DNA from: a virus
Virus record (IMG/VR): IMGVR_UViG_3300010885_078176
Coordinates: 1-28,951 of that record
Reading direction: 5' to 3' (one strand)
DNA length: 28,951 nt
Shown: positions 623 to 25,108 of the stretch, one piece after another
Position numbering within the stretch: the stretch's first letter is position 1
Layout of the letters: the number at the start of each line of letters is the position of its first letter
The notes under the pieces: model-generated
What the model saw: the letters and a program-made list of their open reading frames with translations, nothing else
The model's database searches: none
Told to the model about the DNA's origin: nothing
Program-made: the position numbers and the translations under genes

Positions 623-1171
623 ATGTTACTTAACGTCAGGCAAAATGGTTTTATCATAACCTTTCCTCCAACCTATTTTTCAAATAAAGTAAAGGAAAAG
701 TACAAAAAGTACTATCAAAGCCTAATTTTACCTTATGATACGATTGAAGACTTTATGTCTTCAACTATTCAATCTATTGATTTTCCTGGATGGACTATGA
801 CTCTGGCTCAACAGACTCGTCCCTTAGGTAAAAGACAAGAGTATAAGAGTTCTATTCCAGTAATCGATAACTTTACTAGAGAGTTTACCATTACGTTTAA
901 GATGACAGACGCATACCTAAACTATTTTATCTTTTTGGAAAACAGTTTAGAATTTTTAGATTTTGACAATAAAAAACAAGTATACGATCCAATTAGATTA
1001 TCACTAATGGACAATCAAGGATATTTAGTAGCATCAATCATTTTTGTCGATCCGTTACTCAAAGGACAGGATGGATTTAAACTATCATATAGTTCAAACA
1101 CGCCTGATTTTAAAACCTTTCAGGCAAAATTCCAATACTTTAAATTTGATGTTGAATTAGACTTCAATTAA
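623..1171 (+). CDS. Tail-tube-like (T4 gp19-type) structural protein
   Basis: This 182-aa protein is beta-rich with no membrane segment. Its layout matches the T4 tail-tube fold as I know it. There is an N-terminal strand (GFIITFPPTYF), a central FTREFTITFKMTDAYLNYFIF segment, then PIRLSLMDNQGY and a C-terminal LSYS-x7-F-K-T-F-x2-K-F-x-Y-F-K block typical of tube and tube-initiator proteins. It could be the main tube protein or a baseplate-tube junction protein of the gp48/gp54 kind; the sequence alone does not separate these. Its TAA overlaps the stop of the convergent fibre gene by 4 bp, so there is no room for a conventional terminator between the two transcripts. Confidence 0.55.
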   Translation: MLLNVRQNGFIITFPPTYFSNKVKEKYKKYYQSLILPYDTIEDFMSSTIQSIDFPGWTMTLAQQTRPLGKRQEYKSSIPVIDNFTREFTITFKMTDAYLNYFIFLENSLEFLDFDNKKQVYDPIRLSLMDNQGYLVASIIFVDPLLKGQDGFKLSYSSNTPDFKTFQAKFQYFKFDVELDFN

Positions 1172-3573
1172 GAAGTTAACCTGATTTCTACTCCATCGAT
1201 ATGAGCAAGAACTCTCAAGTACGTTCCTGAGATTGCACCTACTGCGACCTCAATCTTTAAAAAATCGTTTAAGTCATTTGCCGTAACTGCAACTGACACT
1301 GCTGCACTTGCATCCTCGTCTGTACCTAATGTAATGACTGATCCGACTAGCGTAGTTGTTCCTCCAAGGTTTTGAATAGTTACCTGGCGTAGGAATCTAA
1401 CTGAAGTTAAGCCATCGTCTGAGATACCTACTATATTTAACGTTCCTGAAAAAATACTGTTCTGCTGAACATCGAATCTAGCTCCTAATTGATTTAAGTA
1501 TAAAACGTCAGTTGAAGATGCCAAAAATTCTGCTCTAGCTAAAGCTGAAACATGTTGAGCATCTCCTGGAAAATTAAAGATTCCGCTTGAACGAGCTACT
1601 TCTCCATAACGAGTAGAATGAGCGTAATATCCGCTGGCCGTTGAAATATCTCCAGTTGAAACGTTTCCTCTACCTCCGAGCACAATAGAATAATTTCCTA
1701 CCGCTGTGTTTAAACAACCTCCGGTAATGGAAGAAGAAGGACCTTCTGCACTGTTTAACTTTCCTCCGCTTATTATGCTATAATATCCAGATGCGCTATT
1801 GCAATATCCTCCACTTATCGTTGATCTTATTCCAAGTGCACAATTAAGTCTGCCTCCAGAAATAACAGTTGCATATCCACTTGCAGTGTTACAATATCCT
1901 CCGCTAACTGTTGAATTTTGACCACTTGCAGAATTTCCATATCCACCGCTAATGGTTGTTGTAATATTTAATGCACTATTATTTTTGCCTCCTCCAACTG
2001 TAGATCTAGCACAGGTTGCACAGTTATTTCTACCACCGGCAACGACTGTTCCAGTTCCATCAGTATAATTAAGATATCCTCCAGAAATAGTTGAATCTTG
2101 ACCATTTGCACAATTGTTTCTACCTCCACCAACTGTGCTGAAGAAACTAGTAGTACAATTCGAACACCCTCCAGATATAGTTGATGTGCCGCTATCTGAT
2201 TCATTAGCTTTGCCACCAGCAATTACGGAATATGTTCCACTAATAATATTTCCACAACCGCCTCCAATAGAAGAATAACAGCAGCTTACTACATTATTTC
2301 TTCCGCTTACCACTGCAGAATGGTTGCCAGAGGCAGTATTAGACCTACCGTTTCCAACGAAAGCGTAATCATTACTTGAAGTATTGTTACAGCCACCGCC
2401 GACACTTGAGTAGTATCCACTTGCACTATTACTGTAACCTCCACTGACCGTTGAATATTCGCAACTTGCAGTATTATCATAACCTCCGCTTACAGTTGAA
2501 TAGCATCCACTTGCAGTATTATTATAGCCTCCGTTTACAGTTGAATAGCCTCCGCTTGCAGTATTATTATAACCTCCACTAACGGTTGCGCCATATGCGC
2601 TAGCTGAATTGTTTAGATCTTTACGAACAGTTGTTCCAGCTAAGGTGTCTTGAATAATTACTGCATCACTCGATGCTGTAGTTACTCCTATTTCAATTCT
2701 ATTATTGAGTGTGTCATTGTTAAAGGTCCAAGTAGCACTAGGCGTAGGTAAAAAATTTAAAGTTCCTTGTGTGCCAACGGCAGTTCCGTCATCTTCTACA
2801 GAAATTTTAATATCTGCATCTGCGGTTAACGTATTTGAGAGATCATTATATGTCCATGTAATACTCGCAGAGTCTTGAATCAAATTTGAAACACGATCGT
2901 CTACTCTTTCATCTGTGAAATAAAGGTTAGCTCCTTCGCTTAGGTCTCCAGTGTTGAATGGAGTAAGAGAAACAGTAGGTGTAAGTCGACCTAGCGAATC
3001 GTTATATGCCCATGTAATAGAACTTGGGCCGCTTCCTTTAAGTCCAGTTCTAAGCAAGGCTGAGACTCTATCGTCTACTCGCTCGTCTGTGAAATAAAGA
3101 TTGGATATGCCTTCTGACAGGGCATCTGTGTTGAATGGAGTAAGCGATATTATTGGACGTAACGTGTTTGCCGCATCGTCATACTGCCAAGTAACGCTGT
3201 TTGCGCCTGTTCCAGTAAGACCAGTATTTAATAGAGAAGCAACTCTGTCGTCTGTTCTTTCATTAGTAAAGTAAAGATTTGTTCCTTCTGGTAAATCAGA
3301 TGTTGAAAATACAGATAATGAAACGTCTCCTTGTAAAGTTCCAGCAATTGAATTGTAGGTCCACGTCAAACCAGTTCCATTTAAGATAGAACTTGCGGTG
3401 AGCGCAATTGCGCTAATATTTACAAATGAAAGATTTCCTGAACCGTCTGTTGAAATTAATTGACCTGCGAGTCCATCGATTAGTGGAAACGTAAATTGAC
3501 CGAGAATTGTTAGTTTTTCGGCTTTTAATTCACCTACTATTTCAACGTCACTGTAAATTAACTTATCTGCCAT
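1168..3573 (-). CDS. Large tail fibre / adhesin with YadA-head-like repeats
   Basis: This 801-aa protein is a predicted virion fibre. Residues 1-60 form a short attachment region. Residues about 60-240 hold three full copies and partial copies of a unit containing x-T-W-x-Y-N-D followed by D-L-S-E-G-x-N-L-Y-F-T-D-E-R-V-D-D-R-V, common in phage fibres. Residues about 325-645 carry about 21 tandem 15-residue units of the type S-T-V-S-G-G-Y-x-N-T-A-S-G-x-Y, the left-handed beta-roll repeat of trimeric autotransporter heads (YadA/Hep_Hag). The last 150 residues are a non-repeated tip. The repeat block holds about 15 cysteines, unusual for a fibre. It is 13 nt downstream of another fibre gene and is likely read from the same promoter. 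A trimeric receptor-binding fibre is the best reading. Confidence 0.85.
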   Translation of the reverse strand: MADKLIYSDVEIVGELKAEKLTILGQFTFPLIDGLAGQLISTDGSGNLSFVNISAIALTASSILNGTGLTWTYNSIAGTLQGDVSLSVFSTSDLPEGTNLYFTNERTDDRVASLLNTGLTGTGANSVTWQYDDAANTLRPIISLTPFNTDALSEGISNLYFTDERVDDRVSALLRTGLKGSGPSSITWAYNDSLGRLTPTVSLTPFNTGDLSEGANLYFTDERVDDRVSNLIQDSASITWTYNDLSNTLTADADIKISVEDDGTAVGTQGTLNFLPTPSATWTFNNDTLNNRIEIGVTTASSDAVIIQDTLAGTTVRKDLNNSASAYGATVSGGYNNTASGGYSTVNGGYNNTASGCYSTVSGGYDNTASCEYSTVSGGYSNSASGYYSSVGGGCNNTSSNDYAFVGNGRSNTASGNHSAVVSGRNNVVSCCYSSIGGGCGNIISGTYSVIAGGKANESDSGTSTISGGCSNCTTSFFSTVGGGRNNCANGQDSTISGGYLNYTDGTGTVVAGGRNNCATCARSTVGGGKNNSALNITTTISGGYGNSASGQNSTVSGGYCNTASGYATVISGGRLNCALGIRSTISGGYCNSASGYYSIISGGKLNSAEGPSSSITGGCLNTAVGNYSIVLGGRGNVSTGDISTASGYYAHSTRYGEVARSSGIFNFPGDAQHVSALARAEFLASSTDVLYLNQLGARFDVQQNSIFSGTLNIVGISDDGLTSVRFLRQVTIQNLGGTTTLVGSVITLGTDEDASAAVSVAVTANDLNDFLKIEVAVGAISGTYLRVLAHIDGVEIRLTS
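1630..2600 (-). repeat. Tandem 45-bp coding repeats in the fibre gene
   Basis: About 21 degenerate 45-bp units encode 15-residue beta-roll repeats. The most conserved codons specify S-G-G and N-T-A-S-G, while the residues between them vary (Y, C, R, K). The best-preserved copies are at 2400-2600; units become more diverged toward 1650. This is coding sequence, not a CRISPR array. Confidence 0.85.
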
Positions 3574-3586
3574 TGCTTCTTATTTT

Positions 3587-5053
3587 TTATAGTTTTGCTT
3601 GGAGCACAATTGTTCCCTCAACGTTACCAGTAGTGGTGATTGAGATATTATTATCATCTAAGAAGATGAGATCAACTTCGATAGTTATGTCTGGACCAGA
3701 TGGAGAGAAATTAGTATTTTCGCGTACGCTATAAACAATATCCATTGTGCCTAGTCCATGATTTATTGTAAGAGGAGTATTTGCAATAGTCGTAAAGTTT
3801 TGAATGACTGTTTGCATACTCACTCCAGTTGAAAGATTTACAAAAAGTAATATACCTGATCCCAATAAATTAAATTGTCCGCCTGGCTGTAGAACCAGCG
3901 TGCCGTTTGCAATAACGACTTCGCCGTAATTATTCATGATTCCAGAGATCGTTAGATTTCCATAAATCCAATATTGATAATCTTGTAAAACGTTGATCGT
4001 GGTTCCAAAAGGGATATTCTTTTTGTTTCCATATGCTCCTCCAGCAATAGTAACGTCAGCGACTCCTCCACCAGCATCGGTCACTATCACTCCATCACCA
4101 ATAAAATTAACAGTAGTTACTATTGGCACAATTGGCGTACCTGCCTCACTAATTTCTATTGAACCTTGCCCAGTGCAATCAACCACAATTACCAATAATT
4201 TGACATTGTTAATTGTTTGCGAAGTAGTTATATCTAAGCTATTTAGTTGATAATTATCAACATATGCATCAATCAGTTCATTTGTACTCTGGTCGATCAA
4301 TTGAACTAAAAGATCTGTTGAATTAAGATTGTGTACAATGGTGAGAGGTAAGTTTGCTGCAAAGTTATAGATTCCTATAAACGAACAGCCTGATGTACTT
4401 CCTCCACCTGGCGAACCGCCATTGCCTATAACTAAGTCAAAAATCTGACCATTTTCATCAGTGTAATAAACAGTTTGTGAGGTTGGGGTATATGCGGTCT
4501 GATATCCTGGAGGACCTATCCAAATAATTCCTTGATTGTTTCCTGGATTTGGAGGTATCGGTGGACTCGTATTCAGTTCAGTTAATGTAATAAATCCTGA
4601 GCCGCTTTGGCCAGTTAGACTTACCCAGCCTGTTCCCTGTAAATATCCAATAAAATCTTCTCCAAATTCAGGTTTTTGATTTTGTACTCCTGTGTAAATT
4701 ATTTCACCAGGAACTCCAATTTCCGGCCAATCATTAAAATCAGTTAAACGTAGTCGTTTTGTTTCAGCGACCTTTATTAAAATTTCCTGACCGTTTATAC
4801 GGCCTAGCGAGTCAATTGTTAGAGTTGTTGTGCCACCAGTTGACAAGGTAAGAGTATCGGTGATTTCTACAAATTCAAACGTTCCCTTATATGCTTGGAA
4901 GCTATTCGTTGTCTCATCATAGCTAATGTTTCCCAAAAACTCTAAAACCCCATCTGAGAGATTCATAAAGTTTAAGTTAGTGATGTCTATGATAGACGTC
5001 AAGCTCGCATTAGTAAGTCTTCGTATAGCTTCTAAGTTAGCATAAACAGACAT
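3587..5053 (-). CDS. Tail fibre / baseplate-associated structural protein
   Basis: This 488-aa protein has no membrane segment and is rich in Gly, Thr, Ile and Asn in beta-type patterns. It contains two copies of a small domain starting with x-P-L-T-I-x-H-x-L-x-x-x-D (residues about 224-292 and 418-488). This repeat is often seen at the ends of phage fibres, where it forms a beta-sandwich. Between them is a region with strand-turn repeats (ITISGIMNNYGE-like) suggesting a beta-helix. The N-terminal 60 residues are helical and may be the docking segment. A proline/glycine linker lies at 163-173. It sits directly upstream of the 801-aa fibre gene and has its own NATAAATA site, so the two are probably made together as parts of one fibre system. 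Confidence 0.7.
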   Translation of the reverse strand: MSVYANLEAIRRLTNASLTSIIDITNLNFMNLSDGVLEFLGNISYDETTNSFQAYKGTFEFVEITDTLTLSTGGTTTLTIDSLGRINGQEILIKVAETKRLRLTDFNDWPEIGVPGEIIYTGVQNQKPEFGEDFIGYLQGTGWVSLTGQSGSGFITLTELNTSPPIPPNPGNNQGIIWIGPPGYQTAYTPTSQTVYYTDENGQIFDLVIGNGGSPGGGSTSGCSFIGIYNFAANLPLTIVHNLNSTDLLVQLIDQSTNELIDAYVDNYQLNSLDITTSQTINNVKLLVIVVDCTGQGSIEISEAGTPIVPIVTTVNFIGDGVIVTDAGGGVADVTIAGGAYGNKKNIPFGTTINVLQDYQYWIYGNLTISGIMNNYGEVVIANGTLVLQPGGQFNLLGSGILLFVNLSTGVSMQTVIQNFTTIANTPLTINHGLGTMDIVYSVRENTNFSPSGPDITIEVDLIFLDDNNISITTTGNVEGTIVLQAKL

Positions 5054-5074
5054 TTAGCGACTAATTATTTTTAT

Positions 5075-5082
5075 TATTTATT
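5075..5082 (-). promoter_or_regulatory. Late-promoter-like octamer AATAAATA
   Basis: Read on the minus strand, AATAAATA lies 21 nt before the ATG of the fibre gene starting at 5053. It matches the NATAAATA consensus described for T4-like cyanophage late promoters and has a spacing like the other copies in this window. Confidence 0.5.
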
Positions 5083-5112
5083 AATGTTTTAGAGAGCTTA
5101 GATGAATACACG

Positions 5113-6441
5113 TTATCTCTTGATTCTATCTAAGATTTTTGTTTTATCGTCAATTGTTGAATTTAGAGTAAAATTTCCATGTTTTACTAGACATTCACTT
5201 AGGTGAGCGTTTATCATTTTCTTTGGAGCGTTATCTAAATAACTAGAAAAGATCTCATTTGCTTCTCCTAAATAATCACAATTGATTATCTTTGAACTCT
5301 TTATAACATTGTTTGAAAAGATCGTGCATTCAACTAGTTTTGAATTCTTGATAGCACAATTCTCAAACAAACAGTTTTTGGAATCTGCTTCAATTTTGCA
5401 CTGATAGAATTCAATACCTTCAACTAGGATACTTTTTTTGATTTCAGCATCCTTTATCTGTAAAACCTTTCTTCTAGTATCGTAATTTATGATTCCTTCT
5501 GAAATACCTCCTCCGACAATCAGTTTAAATATTTTTTCTCTTAGGATAGTATAATTTGCCTCAATGAGCTGTCTATCTGGTTTAAGATCAATGTATATTG
5601 CAATATTTGGATATAGCGCTTTAAAGTTGAAGTAGCTTCTAGTTCCATCTATTGAGTTCCTAAATTCATTTACTATTTTTGAAATTTTTGATTTTTCCTC
5701 GGTAGTATATGAATAGTTATTCTTTAGAGTTTCATATACGTGTTCGATCACTATATTAATAGTAGAAACAGACTCTTTTTTCTTTTTAGTATAGTCTTTT
5801 CCAGAGATGTATCTTAGCGTTAAATAACTTTCACCTAAATGAGAAAAATCATTTGCAAAAAAATCTGATTCTGGAAAAGAAAATTCAGTAGGATCCATTT
5901 TTTCAATAAAACCTTCGGTTATTACAGTATTGTATATTTCCCTAGGCTGTATAAATTGCAAGTGATTCTGATAGATTATGTTACGCTCATTTTCAGTAGA
6001 AGGCCACATTTCAAAAAGATCTGCTTCATTTATTCCTAGTAAATATTTAAAACGATTAAGTTTACTAAGACCTGACTGCAATCCAAGATCACGTTCATTC
6101 ATTTTTAGGCTGGTCTGTACTGCGCAGCGATCTGTCGTAAAACCTATAGTATCAATAATATTCATGGTCTTTAGAAACATGTGCATTGCTTCTTGATATG
6201 GCATGAATCCAGTAGATAGAGTTATCTCTTTATATCCGTTTGAATAGGTTGGCGACACTTTAAATGTTTCACACGTCGGTTCAAAGCTCGGTGAAACCTC
6301 AGTAAACCACTTAATTTTCTTACCAAGCGAACGTGCAAATTTTGCAGCGACCTCTCTTTTATTGAGTGGAGTGAAAAATTCAAATACAAAGGATAGACTA
6401 GTCTGGTCGTAGATTTCTTTCTTTGACAGTACTTTAAACAT
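5113..6441 (-). CDS. Amidoligase-like protein with beta-helix-like C-terminus
   Basis: This 442-aa protein begins with a strand containing F-V-F-E-F-F-T-P (E at residue 21), then a helix, a Y-x-E-I-T-L-S-T-G-F-M-P-Y segment and a long helix followed by R-C-A-V-Q-T-S-L. This order resembles the N-terminal part of putative phage amidoligases (COOH-NH2 ligases, PF12224), where E-x-E starts the fold and a G-x-H-x-x-x segment completes the site. Here the expected histidine is a glutamine, so activity is doubtful. Residues about 345-400 show short repeats with N-C/S-x-(F/L)-x-(N/E)-C spacing, like a small right-handed beta-helix. It is transcribed with the fibre genes, so a role in tail or fibre assembly is possible. 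The assignment rests on remembered pattern only. Confidence 0.5.
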   Translation of the reverse strand: MFKVLSKKEIYDQTSLSFVFEFFTPLNKREVAAKFARSLGKKIKWFTEVSPSFEPTCETFKVSPTYSNGYKEITLSTGFMPYQEAMHMFLKTMNIIDTIGFTTDRCAVQTSLKMNERDLGLQSGLSKLNRFKYLLGINEADLFEMWPSTENERNIIYQNHLQFIQPREIYNTVITEGFIEKMDPTEFSFPESDFFANDFSHLGESYLTLRYISGKDYTKKKKESVSTINIVIEHVYETLKNNYSYTTEEKSKISKIVNEFRNSIDGTRSYFNFKALYPNIAIYIDLKPDRQLIEANYTILREKIFKLIVGGGISEGIINYDTRRKVLQIKDAEIKKSILVEGIEFYQCKIEADSKNCLFENCAIKNSKLVECTIFSNNVIKSSKIINCDYLGEANEIFSSYLDNAPKKMINAHLSECLVKHGNFTLNSTIDDKTKILDRIKR

Positions 6442-20673: not shown

Positions 20674-22272
20674 ATGAATCAATTCTTGCAAAGAATATTA
20701 ACAGAGCTAAATAGTAATCCTTCTATTAACTCTGAGCCCTTGGTAAAAATGCTCGTTGGGTCAGCCAATAAATCGATTGCTTTGGGAGAAAGTACCGAAG
20801 CTATTTATACAGATCTTAAAAACAGTCTTACTTCGATCAATGAGAATCTTAATAATCCTACGATTAAAGTAATATTGAAGCAGTTTTCAAAAAATGAAGA
20901 TACTGTAGATTCTAGACTTTTAAAGATTGCAAAAGAATCAAACCTTCTTGATAAGATCAGCTTACTTAAAGAATCTCAACTTTATTCTGAACCGGTTGCA
21001 CAAGCAGCAATCGATCTTTTTGAAAGTGAATTAAATAGCGGAATCATTGCTGCTGCACTTTGTGGAAAATTTGTGGATGTTTTTGAACAATATTCATATG
21101 ATGTTACTGCAAAAACTGCAGTGGATAATGTGAAGAAATATATCACTGAGAATTGGGACAAACTTTTAATGCTACGTACAATCTATCAGATTGATAATAT
21201 GAGAGTTCCTTCTTATGCTGGTGTAGTTTCAGATCTAAAAAATATGTTAGTAAAAGAAACATATACTGCAGATATCCTAAAGATCAAATATAACAATACT
21301 GTTGCTCCTATCACGCATTTGATCAACGACCTTAGAATTTTTGAATCTCAAAAGAACGGAAGTTTCACAGTAGGTGAAGGAAATAGCGATACTGTAATTA
21401 ATAACCTAATTGCTCCTTCAACTAGAACAGCGGACGGAATGATTATTTACACAGATAATCGTTTCCTTTCTATTCGTGAAGCAAAAGGATTAATTGGAAC
21501 AGAAGTTAAAGTGCACTATGATGGAAACTTTAAGATCTCTGATTTGTCTCCAGAATACGTTAGTGAAAATCATTCTGATTTTTATAATTTATGTGAAGCG
21601 TATCATAGTCTAGGTTTTTCAAAAACTCAAGACGGTCTAGGTGTTGAAACACATAACATCAAAAATCTTAGAGTAGGTTTAAGAATGAATGAAAACAAAA
21701 GTCTTGATGTCTTTATTAATGGTGAAAAGATTGGCGAGCCTAAGAGTATTAACGTTTCTGAAGCATTAGCTCTTGATAGCAACTTAAATAAAACAAGACT
21801 TACTACTATTCTTGAAAACATTGAAACTATTTATAACTTTGAGTTTATTAAAGAAGTTTCAAATGATCGTCGTATTGCTGAAGCATCAATCTTAAATCTA
21901 AATAAAGATTTTTATATCTGCGAAAAAGTAAATTCTGCAGATCGTGTATGGACTAAAGTTGACGAATTTGAATTATATGAATTCTTCAAATCAAAATTCG
22001 ATTATGACATTAGTCCAATTTTTAAAACTAAAATCGAAGAATCAGTCGATGCTTTAAATAAAGCAGAAGCTGCAAAATCTAAGATTAACAGTGATATTCA
22101 AAAATTAGAAGAATCTATTCAAAAGCTTGATACTGCAATTGAAAATCCAAACTTAACGGATGCTGAAAGCGGAAGACTTAGCTCAATCAAAGAATCTATT
22201 GAATCTACGATTAAGGAACTTAAAGAAACATATATTCGAATCGATCTTTTAAAAAAAAAGGAGCTAGCGTAA
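20674..22272 (+). CDS. Unknown structural-type protein, zero-frame product of a probable frameshift gene
   Basis: The zero-frame product is 532 aa and ends K-K-K-E-L-A. Residues 1-240 are strongly helical with S-L-T-S-I-N-E-N-L-N-N-P-type repeats. A central part (about 240-400) has a beta domain (G-T-E-V-K-V-H-Y-D-G-N-F-K-I, then V-G-L-R-M-N-E-N-K-S-L-D-V-F-I-N-G-E). The C-terminal 80 residues form a coiled coil ending at a run of nine A. Directly after the slip site a second frame continues for 86 codons with a KOW-like domain and no start codon of its own, so the full product is probably about 615 aa. No family is recognised. A late-type octamer lies upstream and a terminator follows the extended frame, which supports treating both frames as one gene. 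Confidence 0.65.
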   Translation: MNQFLQRILTELNSNPSINSEPLVKMLVGSANKSIALGESTEAIYTDLKNSLTSINENLNNPTIKVILKQFSKNEDTVDSRLLKIAKESNLLDKISLLKESQLYSEPVAQAAIDLFESELNSGIIAAALCGKFVDVFEQYSYDVTAKTAVDNVKKYITENWDKLLMLRTIYQIDNMRVPSYAGVVSDLKNMLVKETYTADILKIKYNNTVAPITHLINDLRIFESQKNGSFTVGEGNSDTVINNLIAPSTRTADGMIIYTDNRFLSIREAKGLIGTEVKVHYDGNFKISDLSPEYVSENHSDFYNLCEAYHSLGFSKTQDGLGVETHNIKNLRVGLRMNENKSLDVFINGEKIGEPKSINVSEALALDSNLNKTRLTTILENIETIYNFEFIKEVSNDRRIAEASILNLNKDFYICEKVNSADRVWTKVDEFELYEFFKSKFDYDISPIFKTKIEESVDALNKAEAAKSKINSDIQKLEESIQKLDTAIENPNLTDAESGRLSSIKESIESTIKELKETYIRIDLLKKKELA

Positions 22273-22291
22273 ACGAATCGCTGGACGTTAG
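22254..22291 (+). other. Probable programmed -1 frameshift site
   Basis: The heptamer A-AAA-AAG (22254-22260) is in phase with the zero frame and is the same sequence used by E. coli dnaX. It is preceded by more A and T. A stem CTAGCGT (22264-22270) can pair with ACGTTAG (22285-22291), seven pairs with one G-U, starting 3 nt after the slip; a shorter alternative AGCG/CGCT exists inside. Shifting back by one gives an open frame to 22520. A homopolymer sequencing error is the main alternative. Confidence 0.5.
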
Positions 22292-22520
22292 AATAAAGTC
22301 TCATAAATATCGAATAGGACAATCTGTCACACTAAAAGGTAAAATAGGAAAAGTTACAGCAATCAATGGAGCAACCGGAGATTATCTAGTAATGTTAGAT
22401 TCAAAAAACGAAAGATGTAAAGAATCTCAACTTTCTCCAGTAGAAATAAAATCCAGAAAGCCAAAGAAAAAAGACGTTCAACGAAAAGCACTACCAAAGG
22501 AAAAGAAATCATCACTTTAA
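22260..22520 (+). CDS. C-terminal extension in the -1 frame, KOW-like domain
   Basis: In the frame reached by a -1 slip, 86 codons run from the slip site to TAA at 22518-22520. The frame is closed upstream by a stop at 22221 and contains no ATG, GTG or TTG near its start, so it cannot readily be expressed alone. The product reads N-E-S-L-D-V-R-I-K-S-H-K-Y-R-I-G-Q-S-V, then a barrel-like K-G-K-I-G-K-V-T-A-I-N-G-x4-Y-L-V-M-L-D, typical of KOW/SH3-like nucleic-acid- or protein-binding domains, and a very basic tail (K-S-R-K-P-K-K-K). It is followed at once by a terminator. It is either the frameshifted end of the 20674 gene or, if an A was lost or gained in sequencing, its normal C-terminus. Confidence 0.6.
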   Translation, partial: GASVNESLDVRIKSHKYRIGQSVTLKGKIGKVTAINGATGDYLVMLDSKNERCKESQLSPVEIKSRKPKKKDVQRKALPKEKKSSL

Positions 22521-22521
22521 T

Positions 22522-22547
22522 AAAAAGGAGCATTTTGCTCCTTTTTT
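22522..22547 (+). terminator. Rho-independent terminator
   Basis: A perfect 11-bp stem (AAAAAGGAGCA and complement) with a 3-nt loop and a T-run lies immediately after the TAA of the extended frame. It isolates the preceding gene from the methyltransferase gene. Confidence 0.85.
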
Positions 22548-22630: not shown

Positions 22631-23434
22631 ATGGATACAAGAATCGACTTCAAAACTGCTAAGAAATTTGACCAACTTGAACTTATTGATTGGAAAACAA
22701 AGTATGCAGATTTTAAGTTTTATGTACGCAAGGGTCTAAACGAAGTAAAATATAACGTTGGCACTAATATTACAAAGAGCGCAACTAGCGGAGAATATAT
22801 TAAACCTTTTACTTCTGACATATATGGACCGGTCCTAAATATTACTGAAGTTTTAAATCAGGCCGATACTTGGTTAGACATTGGCGGTCACATGGGATTT
22901 TTTGCAATCCGAATGGCAAAGCAATTTCCAAATATTAAGAAAGTCGTTTCATATGAAGCACTTCCACATAACGTATCATTTGCTTTAGAAAATATTAAAT
23001 TAAATGAAGTAGAAGATCGTTGCGAAGTAGTTCAGAAAGCAATAGTTCCAGGCAAAGAGGAAATGGTCAATTTCTTTATTTCAACCGATTCTGGTAAACA
23101 TTCAATCCTTGAAATTAAAGGTCGTGATGTGATCTCAGTTCCTGCTATCAATATTGATGAAGCAATTAAAGAGCATGGAGTCACAGCATTTAAGATGGAC
23201 GTTGAAGGTGCTGAATATGAGTTAATCAAGTCTATTCAGGACTGGTCGAAAATCCGTATCGCAATTGTTGAATACCATTTCATGTATAAGCCTCTTAAGA
23301 AGAATCGCGTTGAAAAGTTTCAAGAGATCATGAGTATTCTTGAGAAAAACTTTGATTGTATTCGTAAAATCCAATCTGTTGAATATGGTAAAAACTTTAT
23401 AACGCATTTCGTAGCTTTAAAGACGAATGCCTGA
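22631..23434 (+). CDS. FkbM-family SAM-dependent methyltransferase
   Basis: This protein of 267 aa starts at ATG 22631; a longer frame from a TTG at 22535 would begin inside the terminator hairpin and is rejected. The SAM-binding motif I is W-L-D-I-G-G-H-M-G-F-F (residues 81-91), with the acidic residue for the ribose at Y-E-A (E109). The FkbM signature F-K-M-D-V-E-G-A-E-Y-E-L-I follows (D190), then a V-E-Y-H strand. FkbM enzymes usually O-methylate sugars or polyketide groups. Its gene overlaps the DNA glycosylase gene by 8 bp and is near a glucosyltransferase-like gene, so a sugar on DNA is one possible target; a virion or host-surface glycan is another. It lacks the late octamer upstream. 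Confidence 0.85.
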   Translation: MDTRIDFKTAKKFDQLELIDWKTKYADFKFYVRKGLNEVKYNVGTNITKSATSGEYIKPFTSDIYGPVLNITEVLNQADTWLDIGGHMGFFAIRMAKQFPNIKKVVSYEALPHNVSFALENIKLNEVEDRCEVVQKAIVPGKEEMVNFFISTDSGKHSILEIKGRDVISVPAINIDEAIKEHGVTAFKMDVEGAEYELIKSIQDWSKIRIAIVEYHFMYKPLKKNRVEKFQEIMSILEKNFDCIRKIQSVEYGKNFITHFVALKTNA

Positions 23435-23834
23435 GAGTCCATATAATTTACTACAAGAAATATACCGCGAGCATCCATGGAGGATGCTCGTTTGTTGCAT
23501 AATGCTAAATTGTACTTCGCGAAAACAGGTCGATCAAGTCAGAGACGAACTTTTTAGAAAATGGCCAGATGCAAAAGCAATGGTCGTGGCTAATCCTGAA
23601 GAAATTGTAGAGGTCGTGGCTAGTCTAGGTTTTAAAAACAAAAGAGCAAAAACTTTAATATTGTTCTCGATGCAATGGGAGAGCTATGACTGGACTGAAC
23701 CTAATGAATTATATGGAATAGGCAAGTATGGCCAAGATTCATGGGAGATATTCCAGAAGGGCAACCTGAATGTCATGCCGACCGACGGTGTGCTAAACAC
23801 GTATTTGGCTTGGGCAAAACCCTACCTAAACTGA
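23427..23834 (+). CDS. MBD4-like HhH-GPD DNA glycosylase
   Basis: This 135-aa protein covers almost exactly the catalytic domain of methyl-CpG-binding protein 4 and its relatives. Aligned features are the N-terminal P-W-R-M-L-V-C-C-I-M-L-N-C-T-S block, then L-G-F-K-N-K-R-A-K-T-L, and the helix-hairpin-helix L-Y-G-I-G-K-Y-G-Q-D-S-W. The catalytic aspartate is D120 in M-P-T-D-G-V-L-N-T-Y, matching P-E-D-H-K-L-N-K-Y in MBD4. Known family members remove T, U or 5-hydroxymethyluracil opposite G. No iron-sulfur cluster cysteines are present. The gene overlaps the methyltransferase by 8 bp and is 15 nt before the glucosyltransferase-like gene. A base-repair or base-surveillance role for modified phage DNA fits the neighbours. 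Confidence 0.8.
   Translation: MPESPYNLLQEIYREHPWRMLVCCIMLNCTSRKQVDQVRDELFRKWPDAKAMVVANPEEIVEVVASLGFKNKRAKTLILFSMQWESYDWTEPNELYGIGKYGQDSWEIFQKGNLNVMPTDGVLNTYLAWAKPYLN
23468..23490 (+). promoter_or_regulatory. Perfect hairpin inside the glycosylase gene
   Basis: CGAGCATCC and GGATGCTCG form a 9-bp stem with a 5-nt loop, 42 nt into the glycosylase coding sequence, followed by TTTGTTG. It is the strongest hairpin inside any coding region noticed here. It could act as a weak terminator or slow ribosomes and so lower glycosylase output relative to the methyltransferase. It may also be chance. Confidence 0.35.
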
Positions 23835-23849
23835 CAAGTACAAAATAAT

Positions 23850-24920
23850 ATGATTAGTTTATATGCATATTATGGTCTACTTGACCTACATGAAATAGAT
23901 TCTCCTGGACATTCGTTATATCAGATAGGTCTTTTAGATTCAATACGAGAAGAATATAGAGAAAACAAATTTGACTTTTTTTCATATTATCCAACTAGCG
24001 AAATTGAAAAGGTAGATCTAGAAAAGGCAAATTTTCCAGAAACTAATCTTGGAAAAATATTTAAAAAATATAGAGACGATCTTATTTACACATCATGTAT
24101 TGATTTAGATAAGGTTTTTACAAATATTGCAAATAAATCATATTCTAAACTTTACTTAAAGGCTAGATTTAGAAATTTATCAGCTCTTGCAAAAAAGTGG
24201 AAAGATGCAAGAGTTTTTGAGCAGATCATTGAGCTTGCAATTCATTCAGGCTATAGAAAAGAACAGATTATTATTCTAGACACCGATCTTTCGTTACCTA
24301 AAAATTTCGTTGAGAAATATAACAATTTAATAAGTATGGTTGTTCCGTCCATTGATTTTCCAGCAGTATCTTCAAAATTTTTAAATGAATGTATTGAGGT
24401 AAATCTTGTAACAATGGAAGATCGAAAGAAGAATGCTGTTTTTTACGGTAACCTTGATACTTCTAAATATAAGTCAGGTAATCAAAAAAACGAGATTCTA
24501 CAAACGGCTACTGCTTGGCTGACTTCGTACTATTCAAAGAAACATAGTTCAACTGGAGACTCATTTATTTTTATTTGTAAACAAAATGAAGTGGTTTCAA
24601 GTGAAGATGGAATAAGAGTAGTCGCTAGAAATAATCGACCTGAGATATTTGATACTCTTTCAAATTCTCTCGTAATGTTAAATGTCACCAAAGACAAATA
24701 CACTACCCATAAATTTATTCCTGCTAGAATATACGAAGCAATGCTCTTTGGAATGATACCAGTATCTTATAAATTTGAGTTTTTAAGTAAAGTATTTTCC
24801 TTTGAAACAATCGATGATCTATCCGAAATCATAAAATATTTAGACGAATGTGATGTTTCTGATTTAAAAATAGCGTACCTTCATTTTATCAATGAATATT
24901 TTAAATTTGTAAAAGTATGA
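23850..24920 (+). CDS. Glycosyltransferase resembling T4 DNA beta-glucosyltransferase
   Basis: This 356-aa protein has nearly the length of T4 beta-glucosyltransferase (351 aa) and shares several blocks in order. L-D-T-D-L-S-L-P (residues 143-150) aligns with the T4 segment F-T-D-I-R-L-P that holds the catalytic aspartate, here D146. Y-G-N-x6-Y-K-S-G-N-Q-K-N-E aligns with Y-G-G-S-F-R-S-G-Q-R-E-S, the phosphate-binding loop. K-F-I-P-A-R-I-Y-E-A-M (R293, E296) aligns with F-I-T-L-R-V-W-E-T-M, which binds UDP-glucose. The T4 enzyme glucosylates 5-hydroxymethylcytosine in DNA. A generic GT-B glycan transferase is the alternative, since R-I-Y-E-A also occurs there. It overlaps the next gene by 4 bp. 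Confidence 0.65.
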   Translation: MISLYAYYGLLDLHEIDSPGHSLYQIGLLDSIREEYRENKFDFFSYYPTSEIEKVDLEKANFPETNLGKIFKKYRDDLIYTSCIDLDKVFTNIANKSYSKLYLKARFRNLSALAKKWKDARVFEQIIELAIHSGYRKEQIIILDTDLSLPKNFVEKYNNLISMVVPSIDFPAVSSKFLNECIEVNLVTMEDRKKNAVFYGNLDTSKYKSGNQKNEILQTATAWLTSYYSKKHSSTGDSFIFICKQNEVVSSEDGIRVVARNNRPEIFDTLSNSLVMLNVTKDKYTTHKFIPARIYEAMLFGMIPVSYKFEFLSKVFSFETIDDLSEIIKYLDECDVSDLKIAYLHFINEYFKFVKV

Positions 24921-25108
24921 CCGAGATAGAAAAAGTTAAAACTTACGAAAAAGCAGTAAAAGTCATTGAAAGTTGCACTTCTGAGACTCAACTCAAATAT
25001 GCCCAAAAGTATATGGAGCTCTACTATCAAATTGTCAAAGATTTTGACAATTTTCGAAAGTTGGTAAATATTTATAATGATACTGTAGATAAATTGCAGT
25101 CTAGATAA
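24917..25108 (+). CDS. Small helical protein coupled to the glycosyltransferase
   Basis: This 63-aa protein begins in the stop of the glycosyltransferase gene (ATGA). It is almost entirely helical and charged (E-K-V-K-T-Y-E-K-A-V-K-V-I-E-S-C, then L-K-Y-A-Q-K-Y-M-E-L-Y-Y). Coupling suggests a partner or regulator of the upstream enzyme. Function unknown. Confidence 0.55.
   Translation: MTEIEKVKTYEKAVKVIESCTSETQLKYAQKYMELYYQIVKDFDNFRKLVNIYNDTVDKLQSR

Follow-up and report, generated by a model that had tools for sequence, protein, structure and literature searches.

A conserved FkbM methyltransferase-glycosyltransferase pair with an optional MBD4-type glycosylase, probably part of a modified-cytosine DNA system in a T4-like phage clade

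We propose that an FkbM-family methyltransferase and a GT-B glycosyltransferase, encoded together on a virus record, form part of a system by which a clade of T4-like phages makes DNA with modified cytosine. The interpretation as a whole is partly supported, and we give it a probability of about 60%. The window analyzed here is the entire virus record, 28,951 bases in length. Since genes neighboring the block match phage terminase, baseplate wedge, sigma factor, and NUDIX hydrolase genes, and since a T4-type portal (gp20), capsid (gp23), and prohead protease are present in one large relative, we consider the window to be a fragment of a T4-like phage; its clade probably infects Bacteroidetes. 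The analysis established the gene families of the block, the fold and catalytic residue of its MBD4-type glycosylase, the fixed pairing of the other two genes, and a hydroxymethylase-type gene in all nine large relatives.

In the mechanism we propose, a dCMP hydroxymethylase encoded elsewhere in the genome would make 5-hydroxymethyl-dCMP, and a gp56-like dCTPase would remove dCTP so that hydroxymethylcytosine (hmC) replaces cytosine. The 356-aa GT-B enzyme would attach a sugar to hmC in DNA, and the FkbM protein would probably O-methylate either the attached sugar or its nucleotide-activated form. Where present, the MBD4-type glycosylase would remove T or 5-hydroxymethyluracil (5hmU) opposite G. 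These bases would arise by deamination of modified cytosine and would be handled poorly by an ordinary uracil glycosylase.

Table 1. Positions of the gene block and its flanking signal in the window
Feature	Positions	Strand	Basis or remark
Terminator-like hairpin	22522..22546	+	11 pairs, T-rich tail; upstream of block
FkbM-family SAM-dependent methyltransferase, 267 aa	22631..23434	+	PF05050 match
MBD4-type mismatch-specific DNA glycosylase, 135 aa	23427..23834	+	Sequence, fold, catalytic Asp120 (PTDG)
GT-B glycosyltransferase, 356 aa, new phage family	23850..24920	+	Model, structural ranking, conservation
63-aa ORF, overlaps transferase stop	24917..25108	+	Conserved in part of near relatives, 27-44% identity

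The three genes that an earlier note had picked out from the letters of this DNA are real, and the motifs quoted there for the transferase both exist and are under constraint (Table 1). The ATG of the glycosylase gene overlaps the FkbM stop by 8 bases. For the 63-aa ORF, a PoNi_C match fell below the Pfam cut-off (0.013) and was dismissed. The note had also described the block as set apart by a terminator, which holds on the upstream side, where the hairpin lies, but not towards the downstream gene, where we found no terminator-like site. It had further read the lack of a "late octamer" in the block as a mark of early or middle genes. We dropped this argument: with 7 occurrences where 4.1 are expected, the octamer TATAAATA is not enriched in the window, so its absence from the block carries no weight. 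Between the upstream gene and the hairpin, at 22272-22520 on the plus strand, no ORF of at least 60 aa with a usual start is listed; the stretch seems to encode the tail of a short basic protein that resembles small ORFs of the relatives. Elsewhere in the window, three genes on the minus strand (1168-6441) are inverted relative to their surroundings, and the 801-aa product of one carries adhesin-type repeats (UspA1_rep) and is perhaps a fiber.

Being a 29-kb fragment, the window holds no thymidylate-synthase-family gene and no hydroxymethylase. The earlier note had held that a genome without a hydroxymethylase would speak against its reading, and our search of the relatives came out in favor of that reading: each of the nine contigs of 176-271 kb that bear the cassette has a dCMP-hydroxymethylase-type gene (about six of the nine are distinct, as four are near-identical). 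The gene was also found on a 254-kb contig that had been placed in the same bin as the genome of an uncultured member of the Bacteroidetes. Cassette contigs of up to 142 kb that lack the gene are incomplete, and the 131-kb one begins just outside that region. The encoded protein is a thymidylate synthase (TS)-family member of 290-300 aa, distinct from ordinary thymidylate synthase, whose best match in the PDB is T4 gp42 (E 4e-20), followed by MilA. Every copy that we aligned or inspected has Asp at the position of TS Asn177 together with the MRSND and DFVCT blocks, as in gp42; the separate thymidylate synthases of the same phages keep Asn. Asp at this position changes the preferred substrate from dUMP to dCMP and is a marker of metagenome contigs with modified cytosine (PMC8670742). 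Across the five genomes that we compared, the hydroxymethylase gene sits beside a gene reading as a dCMP deaminase, and a search for a dCTPase recovered a gp56-like enzyme in four of them (hhalign probability 99%, 33% identity to T4 gp56). Taken together, these genes are strong evidence for hmC-type nucleotide metabolism in the clade, and the window's own phage would be expected to encode the hydroxymethylase as well. The relatives also seem to have a GroEL-type chaperonin gene of their own, which is conserved across five genomes and was identified only from the start of its sequence.

The transferase was recognized by Pfam through a sub-threshold match only (Glyco_trans_1_2, 0.01). Searches with its sequence yielded chance matches in the PDB and no relatives in annotated phages at E ≤ 1. 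Its predicted model (pLDDT 89) has the GT-B fold, and D144-T145-D146-L147-S148-L149, Y207-K208-x-G210, and R293-x-x-E296 are each at least 97% conserved in 35 sequences; the invariant blocks of the family read DTDLSL/TDLSLP, LKARFRN, YK-x-G, and PAR-x-x-E. The stretch LKARFRNLSTL (residues 103-113) is nearly invariant, yet it runs into residues 109-115, where model confidence is lowest. It is a candidate acceptor-binding loop, and low model confidence is what a substrate loop might show.

The earlier note had likened the enzyme to T4 β-glucosyltransferase (BGT), a comparison that survives in part. The motif blocks are there, and a profile of the family scored 30.8 against six BGT sequences, while none of 120 column shuffles exceeded 24.1, and the alignment paired the UDP-site blocks of the two (YG..[FY][RK]SG and FIxxRx[YW]E). 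That best alignment did not place the invariant D146 of TDLSLP on BGT D100, however, and among 26 records, the window being one of them, none matched PF09198 (BGT, GT72) at E ≤ 1. Likewise, PF11440 (AGT, GT63) did not match the window protein and gave no match above cut-off in 13 relatives. The structure comparison was similarly divided: with VIA-align, T4 AGT and BGT were both among the six best structures at Z 15.6 (for BGT, rmsd 4.3 over 279 aligned residues), but only in a tie with each other and with cellular GT4 enzymes, which stand level at Z 15.6-16.6 (PimA and BshA about 16). A single-sequence BGT test on the whole proteomes of five genomes, which ranked the cassette enzyme first in one, second in another, and seventh or not at all in the remaining three, was not specific in those three and was rejected as a sign of BGT origin. 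AGT and BGT both adopt the GT-B fold although their sequences are not similar (PMC13216743), and a tie by fold is therefore what one would expect of a third family of DNA transferases; the same tie is equally expected of a glycan enzyme. Based on the sequence comparisons and the model, we describe the transferase as a new phage GT-B family apart from the BGT and AGT families and as a predicted 5hmC DNA glycosyltransferase. The circumstantial evidence that it acts on hmC in DNA is of moderate strength.

A single-sequence search of viral contigs with the transferase gave no matches and an alignment query was needed, which recovered 80 viral loci with the transferase down to 34% identity. FkbM adjoins it in all 77 loci that extend far enough upstream, an adjacency beyond chance, and the order c1-c2-FkbM-(MBD4)-transferase-c5 holds wherever the flanks are present. 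MBD4, on the other hand, is present in 40 of the 77 loci and absent from 37, and on a tree of 57 distinct transferases its state changes at least 4 to 9 times. The three-gene cassette proposed earlier must thus be narrowed: since the pair is found in every such locus while MBD4 was gained or lost between its members, the constrained unit is FkbM plus transferase, with MBD4 an optional addition. The genes around the pair are of late type (terminase, sigma factor, and baseplate), and the hydroxymethylase lies elsewhere. Because all FkbM-transferase loci come from one clade, its association with the hydroxymethylase does not amount to many independent events.

The FkbM protein lies well above the Pfam gathering score for PF05050 (E 9.5e-15, 55.6 bits versus 22.7), and its start, MDTRIDF, is conserved in relatives. 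Its one PDB match is a weak one to an O-methyltransferase and brings no substrate information. Among the enzymes of the block it is the weakest link to DNA chemistry, and our literature search found no phage DNA carrying an O-methyl sugar. Both points would fit a transferase that glycosylates hmC while FkbM, a neighbor by synteny only, has another substrate, such as a small molecule or virion glycan. We consider this rather unlikely, given that none of the 77 loci breaks the adjacency, even at transferase identities as low as 34%, while MBD4 comes and goes in between. That FkbM O-methylates the transferred sugar of DNA is nonetheless weakly indicated.

Could the pair instead serve to decorate a virion protein of the capsid, tail, or fiber with a methylated glycan, while the MBD4-like enzyme repairs deaminated bases as a passenger unrelated to them? 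Several points would suit such a glycan: glycans or small molecules are the usual substrates of FkbM and Glyco_trans_1_2 enzymes, the conserved block that contains the pair is close to the genes for terminase, sigma factor, and baseplate, and MBD4 is optional. One 207-kb relative also has a large cluster of sugar-metabolism and glycosyltransferase-like genes at 36-51 kb. This cluster is missing from the relatives of that phage, whereas all members of the clade have the FkbM-transferase pair. Moreover, every large member has the dCMP-hydroxymethylase-type gene, and the searches found no AGT- or BGT-family protein above cut-off for the glycosylation step. The cassette transferase is the only glycosyltransferase recognized by Pfam among the genes common to five divergent genomes, although another divergent one could be missed, since Pfam also misses the cassette enzyme in the relative scanned. 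That DNA is the acceptor is our inference, as are the nature of the sugar and what FkbM does to it; DNA is likelier than virion protein by about two to one, and the virion-glycan explanation is on balance unlikely.

The best-defined enzyme of the block is the glycosylase, for which the assignment made in the earlier note was borne out by both sequence and fold. In a PDB sequence search, residues 2-129 of the 135-aa protein matched MBD4 chains at E 3e-25, with endonuclease III the next family at 0.056, which places it nearer MBD4 than other HhH-GPD glycosylases. With the predicted model (pLDDT 86), all 16 listed MBD4 structures topped the ranking (Z 16.9-17.7 over 129-132 residues, rmsd 2.1-2.4), and endonuclease III followed at Z 13.1. 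The PDB entries among these structural matches include MBD4 complexes with T and with 5hmU. Asp120, in a P-x-D motif near the C terminus, is invariant in 15 aligned viral sequences and aligns with the Asp of PEDHKLN in MBD4. Relatives at 55-74% identity occur on 31 viral contigs. The evidence that the protein is an MBD4-type glycosylase is therefore strong. MBD4 excises T and 5hmU opposite G, and the vertebrate enzyme repairs deaminated 5-methylcytosine.

Among annotated phages, an MBD4-like gene was found in only eight records, namely the Bradleyvirinae and cyanophage S-TIM54. In AXL1 and Donnerlittchen it lies beside genes for a pyrophosphohydrolase, an Asp177 "thymidylate synthase" (GLPYD), a dCMP deaminase, and dihydrofolate reductase; in S-TIM54 the Asp-type enzyme (GVPLD) is accompanied by ThyX. 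An Asp-type dCMP synthase is thus present in all three independent MBD4 lineages that could be examined by genome (this clade, Bradleyvirinae, and S-TIM54); among phage records in general, a match of any kind to the Bradleyvirinae synthase is seen in about 7%. We regard this as strong evidence that MBD4 is linked with modified cytosine. According to the published analysis, from which we took the gene content of Xp12, AXL1 gp65, the product of the MBD4-like gene, was reported only in the related phage Xp12, whose cytosines are all 5-methylcytosine, and its activity received no confident assignment (PMC9206674). In a second viral lineage, the MBD4-like gene is flanked by genes for an RNA-ligase-like protein and a 235-aa 2OG-Fe(II) oxygenase-like protein. 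Its surroundings are a T4-type replication block (SSB, primase, UvsW-like helicase, and DNA polymerase); all functions other than MBD4 were assigned by eye.

HhH glycosylases occur in many phages, MBD4-less loci include persisting genomes with a hydroxymethylase, and the fragments of the second lineage yielded no hydroxymethylase, but the consistent presence of the Asp-type synthase in the three lineages makes it improbable that the MBD4-like enzyme is a general phage uracil/thymine mismatch repair protein independent of cytosine modification. Third-position G+C was higher in MBD4-bearing phages than in near relatives without the gene in seven of nine independent pairs (Wilcoxon 0.02, sign test 0.18, the test having been chosen after the trend was seen). 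The direction is that expected if MBD4 counters C-to-T drift, and is only suggestive; if true, loss of the repair gene may let a phage genome drift towards A+T.

In sum, phages of the clade probably decorate their DNA chemically and mend the kind of damage that such DNA typically suffers. The MBD4 type occurs in three unrelated phage lineages with a dCMP-modifying synthase, including the Xp12 group with fully methylated cytosine, which suggests that wholesale cytosine modification poses the same mutational problem, and has met the same solution, in viruses as in vertebrates. A likely function, MBD4-like repair, can now be proposed for AXL1 gp65. The FkbM-transferase pair, in turn, points to a sugar modification for which our literature search found no description. 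Tentatively, and with less than even confidence, we suggest that these phages carry an undescribed base, O-methylated glycosyl-hydroxymethylcytosine, which a new family of DNA glycosyltransferases makes together with FkbM, and that their MBD4-type repair is dedicated to deaminated modified cytosine.

Of the known systems, the hmC pathway of T4 (gp42, gp56, AGT of GT63, and BGT of GT72) shares with these phages the hydroxymethylase with Asp at TS position 177 and gp42-like blocks, the gp56 homologue, and transferases of the GT-B fold and similar length with TDxxLP, [FY][RK]SG, and RxxE blocks. It differs in that the phages described here have no AGT or BGT Pfam members above cut-off, carry a separate transferase family paired with FkbM far from the hydroxymethylase, and add MBD4-type repair. 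T4-like RB69 and Shewanella phage Thanatos likewise place a sugar on modified cytosine (PMC6024577, PMC12838424), but the sugar is arabinose or a deoxypentose and the gene sets are different, with no occurrence of FkbM in the RB69 text. Xp12-type phages (Bradleyvirinae, AXL1 gp62-gp65) have the MBD4-like glycosylase, the Asp-type TS homologue, the dCMP deaminase, and the pyrophosphohydrolase in common with the clade, whereas their modification is 5-methylcytosine and the stretches read contain no annotated glycosyltransferase or FkbM gene. Lastly, the glycosylase of the block is phage-encoded and, unlike vertebrate MBD4, has no methyl-CpG-binding domain, yet it matches the vertebrate MBD4 domain over its full length at 33-36% identity, shares its catalytic Asp, and finds in it the best fold match.
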